Assembly (NCBI RefSeq): GCF_002080435.1
Contig: NZ_CP020539.1
Location: 124,001-188,000, forward strand
Source: Sphingobium herbicidovorans
GTDB lineage: Bacteria; Pseudomonadota; Alphaproteobacteria; Sphingomonadales; Sphingomonadaceae
Direction: 5' to 3'
DNA: 64,000 nt
Part shown: positions 2,107 through 7,344 of the stretch, piece after piece
How positions within the stretch are numbered: position 1 is the first letter of the stretch
Layout of the letters: each line of letters starts with the position of its first letter
Made by a program: the position numbers and the translations under genes
The notes under the pieces: model-generated
Database searches by the model: none
What the model saw: only the letters and a program-made list of their open reading frames with translations
What the model was told of the DNA's origin: nothing

Positions 2107-2232
2107 TTCCTCGGCATCCTGTCGCTGGGCATGAGCATGGGCCAATGGCTGTGCGTGCCCATGGTGCTGGCCGGCGTGGCGATGTGGGTGTGGTGCGGGC
2201 GGCGCGCAGCGGCGTCCGCGTCGCCGCGCTGA
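2107..2232 (+). pseudogene. lgt: lgt 3' fragment (prolipoprotein diacylglyceryl transferase)
   Basis: The first complete frame after the IS right end encodes [20 protein letters not shown] and a short Arg/Ala-rich end, the last transmembrane part and C-terminus of Lgt. The first 8 bases (TTCCTCGG) repeat the last 8 bases of the lgt 5' part at 6635-7344. Joining 6635-7344 to 2115-2232 restores one continuous Lgt frame. The gene was therefore split by IS insertion when this DNA was circular. It ends 4 bp before the convergent stop of rdpA. Confidence 0.88.
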
Positions 2233-2236
2233 GGCG

Positions 2237-3123
2237 CTAGCGCGCCGGGCGCACGCCACCGACCGTGGTGCGCGTCAGGTAGCGGAACTTGCCCGCGTAG
2301 TCGGGTACGGCCCGGTGCATCGTGCACAGGTTGTCCCAGACCAGGACCTGGTCCTTCTTCCAGCGCACGCGGCAGGTGAAATCGAACCGTGTCGCATGCT
2401 CGTACAGGAACTGCAGCAGCGGTTTGCTTTCGGCATCGGTCATGCCCTCGATGCGCTGGCAATAGACCTGGTTCACGTACAGGCCCTTGCGGCCGCTGCC
2501 CGGATGGGTCACCACCAGGGGGTGCACGGTTTCACGGTCGCCCGCGTCGACGTCCATCACCTTGACGCTGGTGTTGCTGAAGCGCCGGTTCTGGGCCTGG
2601 TAGAGCGAGCCGAACACACGCGTGGCGCTGTGCACTACGTTCAACCCTTCGATGGTGGCCTGCATGGTGGGCGACAGCGTCTCCCACGCGGTGTACATGC
2701 TCAGAAAACCGGTGTCGCCGCCATGCTCGGGCACGTCGATCGCGCGCATCACCACGGCGGCCGGCGGTGCGTCCAGGAAGGTGCTGTCGGTGTGCCAGTC
2801 ATCACCGATCACACGCCCGCTTTCGTTGGCTTCGCGGCGGATCATCTGCACCTCTGGATACCCTTCGATGCTCTTGAGCAGGGGCACGGGATCGACGGGG
2901 CCGAAGCGCCGGCTGAAGGCGATGTGCTGTTCGTTGGTGATCGCCTGGCCGGGAAAATAGATGACCTGGTAAGTGTGGAACGCGTCGAGGATTTCGTTCC
3001 AGGTGCTGTCGTCGAGCGGCTCGCGCAGGTCGACGCCGGTGATCTCGGCGCCCAGGACGCCGGTCAGCGGCTGGACCGCGATGCGCTCAAAGCGCTGGGA
3101 GAGGGGGACAGTGCAGCATGCAT
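2237..3123 (-). CDS. rdpA: (R)-phenoxypropionate/alpha-ketoglutarate dioxygenase (frameshifted as read)
   Basis: Fe(II)/2-oxoglutarate dioxygenase of the TauD/TfdA family. It cleaves the ether side chain of (R)-dichlorprop/mecoprop to the chlorophenol plus pyruvate, in the cytosol. The 2-His-1-Asp iron triad is visible as WHTDS and the distal CTMHRAV, with the 2-oxoglutarate arginine near YLTRTTVGG. The sequence agrees closely with my memory of RdpA from S. herbicidovorans MH / D. acidovorans MC1 (295 residues). As read, the 5' end (MHAAL start at 3123) is out of frame with the rest. One base is missing in a C run (plus-strand G run 3103-3107), and restoring it gives exactly 295 codons plus stop. 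Sequencing error or a genuinely inactive copy are both possible; the former is more likely. Confidence 0.9.
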
Positions 3124-3137
3124 GGAAGCGTTGATCC

Positions 3138-3232
3138 TTAATCGAACTTGATGTTGTGCTCGCGCACGACCTGGTTGAACCCGTCGTACTGCGCCTTGAA
3201 GAACGCGCCGAACTGATCGGCGGGCATGCCGT
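3138..3232 (-). pseudogene. Tripartite tricarboxylate transporter substrate-binding protein (Bug), C-terminal scrap
   Basis: Upstream of rdpA a minus-strand frame encodes about 30 residues ending in [13 protein letters not shown] and TAA. This resembles the C-terminus of Bug-type periplasmic binding proteins that abound in Burkholderiales. The fragment stops at the tandem repeat beginning at 3233. It has no start and no ligand-binding lobe, so it is a relic that marks the betaproteobacterial origin of the segment. Confidence 0.5.
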
Positions 3233-3335
3233 AGAATCCAGATAGGAAATTCAACCGCATGAGGCCAAGTATGGCACGAAATCCAGATAGAATCCAGATA
3301 GGAAATTCAACCGCATGAGGCCAAGTATGGCACGA
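3233..3335. repeat. Two 47 bp direct repeats
   Basis: Positions 3233-3279 and 3289-3335 are identical 47-base units (starting AGAATCCAGATAGGAAATTC) separated by 9 bases that repeat part of the unit. They sit between the Bug scrap upstream of rdpA and the IS91/ISCR-type transposase remnant. They may be a duplicated end of that element or a replication-slippage product. Confidence 0.9.
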
Positions 3336-3501
3336 GTTTTGGGCCTCGAAACACGTTCGGCCAAGGAAGGTTGAGCGCTCGCTTGCCGCTCAATGGCAAG
3401 AGCTTGGGAGGCAGTATGCATTTGGGCCTGGCGCGCGCGCAGCTGCTTCCCCGCAGCGATGGATACCGCCGCTTCACTGGGTCACCAATTGACGCGCTGG
3501 T

Positions 3502-5913: not shown

Positions 5914-5952
5914 GGGCGCCAGCCGCCGCCCTGCGCAAGGGCGTTGCGGCCG

Positions 5953-6345
5953 TCACTGCGGGCCATCGGATCCCTGGCGCTGCCCAAAGACCTCTTTGGC
6001 CGCGAGCAGCCCGTTCAGCGCCGCCGGGAAGCCCGCGTACACGGCCATCTGCATGAGGACCTCGACGATCTCCTGCTCGCTGCAGCCCACGTTGCGCGCG
6101 CCGTGCAGGTGGACGCGCAACTGGGGCCCGGCGGTGCCCATGGCCGTGAGCGCGGCGACGGTGGCCAATTCGCGCGTCTTGAGGTCCAGCCCGGGCCGGG
6201 TGTAGATGTCGCCGAACGGGAATTCGATCAACAGCCGCGCGAAGTCGGGCGCAATGCCCCGCAGGCTGTCGATCACGTTTTCGCCGGCCTGGCCATCGAC
6301 TTCCTTGAGCTTGGCCCAGCCTTCGCGGTAGCGTTCGTTGTCCAT
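5953..6345 (-). CDS. Carboxymuconolactone decarboxylase family protein
   Basis: A 130-residue all-helical CMD/AhpD-fold protein (start [13 protein letters not shown] at 6345). Typical features are the [14 protein letters not shown] stretch and the helix with [16 protein letters not shown]. The family includes PcaC gamma-carboxymuconolactone decarboxylase and AhpD-like redox proteins. Only one Cys is visible in the active-site helix, so a PcaC-like rather than AhpD-like role is favoured, but substrate is unknown. It is divergent from the LysR remnant at 6432, an arrangement suggesting that regulator once controlled it. It is part of the captured foreign segment. Confidence 0.85.
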
Positions 6346-6431
6346 GTCGTGTCCTTGGTGGTGGTAGATGGCCGCAGCGTAGGCGCGTGCCGGCGGCGCG
6401 GCCAATACCGTGTTGGTGATACCTTTCCGGT

Positions 6432-6595
6432 ATGAAAGAGGCCATCGCGCTGCGCCATCTGCGTTAGTTCCTGGCCGTGGGCGAAACGCTGGACTTCGGC
6501 CGCGCCGCCGGGCGGCTGCGCATCTCGCGGCCGCCGCTGAGCCGACAGATCCGCGCGCTCGAAGCGCAGCTTGGCGTGCCGCTGTCCGTGCGATG
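6432..6595 (+). pseudogene. LysR-type regulator, N-terminal remnant
   Basis: Starting at ATG 6432 the frame reads [11 protein letters not shown], then a TAG stop where LysR proteins have Tyr, then [17 protein letters not shown] and [17 protein letters not shown]. This is a classic LysR winged HTH of about 55 residues. The rest of the gene is absent and lgt follows 40 bp later. Dead both by nonsense mutation and by deletion. Divergent to the CMD gene. Confidence 0.75.
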
Positions 6596-6634
6596 GGCAT
6601 CGGCGGGTGCTGCGCCAGCAGGCAAAATCGCCGC

Positions 6635-7344
6635 ATGCTCACTTATCCCCAAATTGACCCGGTCGCGTTGCAGATCGGGCCCCTGGCGATCCACTGGTAC
6701 GGCATCACCTACCTGGTCGCGTTTGCGCTGTTCATGTTCCTGGGCATCCGCCGGCTGCGCCACGAGCCTTTTGCGTCCATCACGGGGCCCGGCGCCTGGA
6801 GCCGCAAGGATGTCGAAGACATCCTGTTCCTGGGCGTGATGGGCGTGGTGATCGGCGGCCGCCTCGGTTACTGCCTGTTCTACAAGCCGGGCTATTACCT
6901 GTCGCACCCGCTGGAGATCTTCTACGTGTGGCAGGGCGGCATGGCCTTTCACGGCGGCATGCTGGGCGTGATCGCGTCCATGGTCTGGTTCGCGCGCTCA
7001 CGCCAGCGCCCCTGGATGCAGGTGGCCGACTTTGTCGCACCCTGCGTGCCCACCGGGCTGGCCGCCGGCCGCGTCGGCAACTTCATCAATGGCGAACTGT
7101 GGGGCCGCTTCTCTAGTCCCGACCTGCCCTGGGGCATGGTGTTCCCGCACAGCGGCTCCATGCTGCCGCGCCACCCGTCCCAGGTCTACCAGTTCCTGCT
7201 CGAAGGCCTGCTGCTGTTCGGGCTGCTGTGGCTGTATGCGCGCAAGCGCCGCGCCGAGGGCCAGGTGGCCGCGATGTTCCTGATCGGCTATGGCGTGTTC
7301 CGCTTCACGGCCGAGTTCTTCCGCGAGCCCGACGCCTTCCTCGG
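6635..7344 (+). pseudogene. lgt: lgt 5' fragment (prolipoprotein diacylglyceryl transferase)
   Basis: The first 236 codons of Lgt, the inner-membrane enzyme that transfers diacylglyceryl from phosphatidylglycerol to the lipobox Cys of prolipoproteins. It starts [20 protein letters not shown], has the FHGGMLG motif and the signature [13 protein letters not shown], and several membrane helices. The frame is cut by the IS at 7345 within REPDAFLG. The missing C-terminus lies at 2107-2232 beyond the other IS copy. The host must rely on another lgt. Confidence 0.92.

Follow-up and report, generated by a model that had tools for sequence, protein, structure and literature searches.

A circularly permuted rdpA segment between IS6100-like elements of Sphingobium herbicidovorans and its probable origin from a circular relative of plasmid pAKD34

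Organization of the rdpA locus

A stretch of 64,000 nucleotides from Sphingobium herbicidovorans (contig NZ_CP020539.1, positions 124,001 to 188,000; hereafter the window) contains rdpA, the gene for an (R)-phenoxypropionate 2-oxoglutarate dioxygenase, within a segment of 5,238 bp that is enclosed by two IS6-family elements. From left to right this segment carries the 8-mer TTCCTCGG, the 3' part of lgt, rdpA, two 48-bp ends of ISPps1, a truncated ISPps1, a truncated kefB (kefB'), a carboxymuconolactone decarboxylase family gene (cmd), a LysR fragment, the 5' part of lgt and TTCCTCGG again, and without the second 8-mer the unit measures 5,230 bp. The features are listed below by window position.

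1225..2106, minus strand: left IS6-family element, IS6100-like; transposase at 1277-2041 (DDE_Tnp_IS240, PF13610); identical to the right copy
2107..2114: TTCCTCGG, left copy of the target-site duplication, the right copy being at 7337-7344
2115..2232, plus strand: 3' part of lgt, stop codon at 2230-2232; identical to lgt of pAKD34
2237..3124, minus strand: rdpA, TauD family; TauD (PF02668) on 2237-2887
3232..3279: first 48-bp copy of the ISPps1 end, a remnant also found in pAKD34
3288..4693, minus strand: truncated ISPps1 of the IS91 family with a Y2 transposase, starting with the second 48-bp copy and lying between rdpA and kefB'
4692..5913, plus strand: kefB', 5'-truncated cation:proton antiporter gene (PF00999, PF02254), 100% to pAKD34
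5953..6345, minus strand: cmd (CMD, PF02627), inside the 100% match to pAKD34
6466..6592, plus strand: fragment of a LysR-type regulator gene, 78% to a LysR gene at another place on pAKD34
6635..7344, plus strand: 5' part of lgt (LGT, PF01790), ending in the second TTCCTCGG; identical to pAKD34
7345..8226, minus strand: right IS6-family element, IS6100-like; transposase at 7397-8161

The two parts of lgt stand in reversed order, with the 5' part at the right end of the segment and the 3' part at the left end. Joining window positions 6635-7344 to 2115-2234 with one copy of TTCCTCGG kept restores a single open Lgt frame, as a preliminary description of this DNA had proposed, and the 830 joined lgt bases show zero differences from the uninterrupted lgt of plasmid pAKD34.

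RdpA is 98.6% identical to its counterpart on pAKD34 over the whole protein. Near the start of rdpA (window 3098-3112), a run of five G against six in pAKD34 means that the usual ATG is not in frame in the assembled sequence, and the missing G is either a homopolymer assembly error or a real disruption. Among the genes of the unit scanned with Pfam, no replication gene was recognised.

Comparison with plasmid pAKD34

Plasmid pAKD34 (JN106175.1; positions given below in locus L009) comes from an uncultured bacterium and is typed as IncP and MOBP; a passage in one paper names it IncP-1 epsilon (PMC7728920). It carries kefC/kefB, cmd, an uninterrupted lgt and a convergent rdpA in this order, with lgt annotated as intact and adjoining rdpA. 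The uninterrupted lgt junction beside rdpA, which the preliminary description had put forward as the arrangement to look for, is therefore present on a plasmid.

The window order lgt3'-rdpA-ISPps1'-kefB'-cmd-lgt5' is a circular permutation of the order kefB-cmd-lgt-rdpA on pAKD34. Window 4692-7344 corresponds to L009 12001-14653 at 100% over 2,653 bp, and window 2104-3303 to L009 14643-15845, from which it differs by one substitution and two gaps. Both matches meet inside the lgt of pAKD34, where their overlap between the IS borders equals the 8 bp, and TTCCTCGG occurs once in this lgt, at the corresponding place (L009 14646). Since the two matches meet in lgt with an 8-bp overlap and the 830 joined bases are exact, the segment is a pAKD34-type one in circularly permuted form, the opening lying at a single 8-bp site within lgt.

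The region around rdpA on pAKD34 resembles the unit in the stretch kefB-cmd-lgt-rdpA at 99.7-100% and in the presence of ISPps1 nearby. It differs in that lgt is intact, the order is unpermuted, no IS6-family gene is annotated within the 27.8 kb looked at, and a transporter gene and ilvD-LysR-bfr-kefC are present. Relative to the plasmid, the unit is without L009 15846-17229. A further part is absent, either L009 5915-12000 or the whole arc that starts at L009 18635 and runs around the circle to 12000, and these parts may have dropped out either ahead of capture or later. L009 7160-12000 and 15846-17229, searched in the genome of the window, gave no close match outside the unit, and the matches listed, including the LysR fragment of the unit, had 63-85% identity.

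IS6100-like elements and their flanks

The elements at both borders of the segment are 882 bp each, 100% identical and in direct repeat. They have the short inverted repeats (perfect, 14 bp at the termini) and the length near 880 bp of the IS6 family, and their transposase of 254 aa carries the domain of this family, DDE_Tnp_IS240, at 171.8 bits in Pfam. We call the 882-bp elements IS6100-like, a name with which both the transposase and the length agree. A section of a review on the family gives IS6100 a 254-aa transposase and a length of 880 bp (PMC7986276).

At least 11 matches to this element were counted in the genome with 40 of the 43 candidates scored, two of which were distant or partial and were left out, and the nine full-length copies found provided 18 flanks and 153 flank pairs. 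The window itself holds another identical copy on the minus strand (40346-41227) and an 83% relative (37339-38092). A second, more distant IS6-type transposase, 67% to the element over 300 bases, lies at 8728-9321, where a stop splits it into two abutting frames.

TTCCTCGG is present at both inner borders of the IS copies, in agreement with the preliminary description, and its length is that of the 8-bp duplication of IS6-family elements; further copies in the window, at 4966 (plus strand) and 24488 (minus strand), adjoin no IS. An 8-mer was common to the flanks in two of the 153 pairs, one being the inner-border pair with TTCCTCGG, while by chance about 153/65,536 = 0.002 same-strand 8-mer matches are expected among the flank pairs. 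The second pair shares CCCTGAGC and belongs to the copies at C2:57863-58744 and C2:73846-74726 of the same genome, which are inverted to each other and about 15 kb apart. According to the review, such an inverted arrangement of a shared flank 8-mer marks replicative inversion (PMC7986276). The direct TTCCTCGG pair and the inverted CCCTGAGC pair thus indicate that the element has left replicative traces at two places in the genome.

The outer borders behave differently from the inner ones. The outer 8-mers CGAATAAC and GCCTGTAC differ, the donor IS showing no duplication of its own there, and neither matches any other flank of the nine IS copies. Because the outer flanks do not match, the resident IS had probably already undergone rearrangement, or else the duplication belonging to the donor IS had been lost.

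No Pfam families were recognised in the fragments of the left and right outer flanks. The left outer flank matched nine plasmid records, with a best match of 91.0% and with at least 80% of the query covered in four of them; the best ones have a ParB partition gene. The right outer flank matched 14 plasmid records, 13 of them within its first 339-340 bases and 11 annotated as Cj0069 family, and one region was looked at for each flank. No record is common to the two plasmid lists (9 and 14). Among 199 genomes of the family of the window, the left flank was found in 11 and the right in 16, mostly as weak matches. Judging by the annotation of other sphingomonad plasmids, a ParB partition gene would contain the left outer flank, and a Cj0069-family gene the right one.

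ISPps1 and closure of the ring

The preliminary description did not mention the truncated ISPps1, which probably explains how the ring closed. The IS91 family, to which ISPps1 belongs, has a rolling-circle habit. The piece in the unit, 1.4 kb long, contains the Y2 transposase domain (Y2_Tnp, PF04986, 130.9 bits in Pfam), and of the two element ends one is identical to the pAKD34 copies and the other is absent. Its junction on the rdpA side lies at the repeated ISPps1-end motif, and on its other side it passes into kefB' within the transposase gene, with some two bases of overlap. This ISPps1-kefB junction had no exact match in viral contigs and was seen in three of the 106 loci examined, all three from the genome of the window.

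On pAKD34, two copies of ISPps1, in the same orientation and identical over 2,041 bp, flank the segment on both sides. The piece in the unit is 99.4% identical to them, with seven substitutions and one gap, and 99.8% identical to a copy on a plasmid of Pandoraea, a betaproteobacterium, with which it has seven of the eight differences from pAKD34 in common. These differences rule out a ring made with the ISPps1 copies of pAKD34 itself as exact donor. By the same comparison pAKD34, whose ISPps1 allele differs, is a relative of the donor and not the donor itself, the allele of the unit being nearer to the Pandoraea plasmid copy. Recombination with a resident ISPps1 (C2:80120), which shares six of the eight differences, was considered and dropped in view of the seven shared by the Pandoraea plasmid copy.

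Excision of the ring by IS6100 itself was likewise rejected, because the inner flanks would then differ, yet both are TTCCTCGG. The two flanks of a ring arising by IS6-family intramolecular deletion are different, as the review states in its account of such deletions (PMC7986276). The identity of both inner flanks to one 8-mer therefore argues that IS6100 acted on the ring as a target instead of excising it, and the ring was probably closed through ISPps1, not through IS6100. Since direct ISPps1 copies bound the segment in pAKD34, the likeliest closing step may be recombination between such copies or rolling-circle activity of ISPps1.

At L009 15766-15845, next to rdpA, pAKD34 itself retains the 48-bp ISPps1 end remnant and after it a short stretch of another, which hints that ISPps1 acted here repeatedly. 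In the genome of the window, an approximately 11.0-kb tandem repeat bounded by ISPps1 lies at about 87.6-104 kb of C2, with stacked partial ISPps1 ends and, in each unit, a second dioxygenase-type gene that is presumably sdpA.

Distribution of the unit and its parts

The arrangement is rare among the records consulted. Of 441 plasmid records with an RdpA relative, one exceeded 60% identity, the RdpA loci in species genomes numbered 30 (best 77%) with no lgt nearby in the 11.4 kb examined, and a protein search returned 785 proteins, the top one of the best 120 listed being at 98%. Linkage of lgt to rdpA was seen only in pAKD34 and the window among the records looked at.

The preliminary description had named two observations as speaking against a circle, namely a donor genome with the same linear gene order and lgt fragments from different alleles. 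The linear order of the window had no place covering 80% of the query in any of 72,556 plasmid records, a set that may leave out records very near the genome of the window. Among 94 genomes of the genus, 12 matched the unit at 1e-50, with the whole length present only in the window's own genome and the match in the other 11 limited to ISPps1 or distant kefB-type DNA. Both parts of lgt match the one allele of pAKD34. Neither observation was thus made in these sets.

The neighbourhood of kefB and lgt is more widespread. A search of the phylum (398 genomes, 304 matching kefB-lgt DNA) was used only to choose the family for a further search, in which 87 of the 399 genomes of family G574 had a match at the strict cut-off of 1e-200. 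In all three contigs fetched from genus g364 of this family, kefB precedes lgt at about 87-89% identity, and the stretches retrieved have no rdpA between the two genes or next to them.

No exact donor, free ring or IS-free version of the ring was found in the sequence records searched. A limited literature search found no paper linking rdpA, IS6100 and S. herbicidovorans, or pAKD34 and rdpA, and unpublished status is not claimed. A 2017 paper reportedly deals with the genome of S. herbicidovorans MH, taken as the same strain, and with its circular intermediates and mobilome.

Proposed history and alternative explanations

The permuted order, the 8-bp duplication, the single lgt allele and the intact lgt of donor type are observed directly. 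It is very likely that a circular molecule related to pAKD34 was opened inside lgt by an IS6100-type element on a replicon, via replicative cointegration. The starting molecule would be a free ring, kefB'-cmd-lgt-rdpA-ISPps1', derived from a relative of this IncP plasmid, with a size that we infer from the unit. An IS6100-type element resident on the replicon of the window would attack the ring at TTCCTCGG inside lgt, and replicative cointegration, preferred here to the integration of an IS-bearing ring, would leave an IS copy at either boundary with an 8-bp copy on the inner side of each, giving the reading lgt3'-rdpA-ISPps1'-kefB'-cmd-lgt5'. That replicative cointegration by IS6-family elements is an established mechanism, as the preliminary description held, is borne out by the review's treatment of it (PMC7986276). 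The same description had the segment captured as a 5.2-kb circle carrying rdpA; the circle stands as a permutation of the donor-type arrangement, while its size of 5.2 kb at capture and the single step do not follow from the structure. Capture in one step by the sphingomonad IS6100 of a small, non-replicating rdpA ring, produced on a pAKD34-like plasmid by ISPps1, can accordingly be put forward only tentatively.

Two alternatives are versions of the ring model, and the confidences given to them overlap. Nearly as probable as not is an insertion of IS6100 into lgt on a whole replicating pAKD34-like plasmid, whose cointegrate later lost all DNA separating ISPps1' from kefB' as well as that separating rdpA from ISPps1, and so shrank to 5.2 kb. 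The unit keeps the cyclic order of the circular pAKD34 map with two gaps, and as no replication gene was recognised among its scanned genes, a plasmid-sized ring would persist more easily. The absence of a close match outside the unit for the two pAKD34 stretches searched, L009 7160-12000 and 15846-17229, weighs against this, as do the seven of eight differences from pAKD34 that the ISPps1 piece has in common with a betaproteobacterial plasmid copy, which suggest that its junction may predate entry. Rather unlikely is a ring that already had IS6100 in lgt, a translocatable unit, and was integrated at a resident IS6100 through targeted conservative or RecA recombination. Such a route, described for IS26 in part of the review (PMC7986276), yields the same final structure at the price of one extra step, insertion and resolution coming first. 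The two IS copies are identical, and this route and a single replicative cointegration, ending in the same structure, are indistinguishable by the final sequence.

Explanations without a free ring fare worse. A tandem array of rdpA units that received IS6100 and was amplified, its outer units being lost by IS6100 deletions, is quite improbable: the ISPps1-bounded repeats around the second dioxygenase-type gene on C2 provide a precedent in this genome, but two deletions ending exactly at the IS would be required to replace lgt on both outer sides, and when the genome was searched with the unit, 40 of 136 candidates being scored, the matches listed were, apart from the unit itself, no more than pieces of ISPps1 and two short stretches (37 and 39 bases, 85-86% identity). 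Chance or an assembly artefact is hardly credible. Long identical IS copies can mislead assemblies, yet the reference for the permutation is an independent plasmid, to which the 830 joined bases correspond exactly, and misassembly at an IS is not expected to create an 8-bp duplication.

Relation to known systems and significance

The proposed opening of a ring by replicative cointegration connects the unit with the pseudo-compound transposons and cointegrates of the IS6 family (IS26, IS257, and Tn610 with IS6100), which likewise have two direct IS copies and a DDE_Tnp_IS240 transposase; the 8-bp duplication and replicon fusion are described for IS6-family cointegrates in the corresponding part of the review (PMC7986276). 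Unlike these systems, the unit retains the target duplication at its inner flanks, which interrupt a gene, and its cargo is catabolic. Because these flanks split lgt, the opened ring is directly readable. The Y2 transposase and the single element end kept at the ring junction recall mobilisation by rolling circles of the IS91/ISCR type, whereas the ISPps1 copy of the unit is truncated and the circle is inferred here from sequence alone.

The locus is a well-preserved and unusually clean case of a known IS6 capture route, the mechanism itself being established. Since the target site and the ring can both be recognised, together with a near-identical relative of the donor, the order of events is legible from the sequence. 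An IncP soil plasmid is linked in this way to a herbicide-degradation gene of a sphingomonad, and a specific mechanism, with the ring formed first and captured by the IS second, becomes testable. If true, release of rings by IS91-type elements combined with capture by IS6-type elements could be a general route by which catabolic genes pass between distant bacteria without plasmid establishment.
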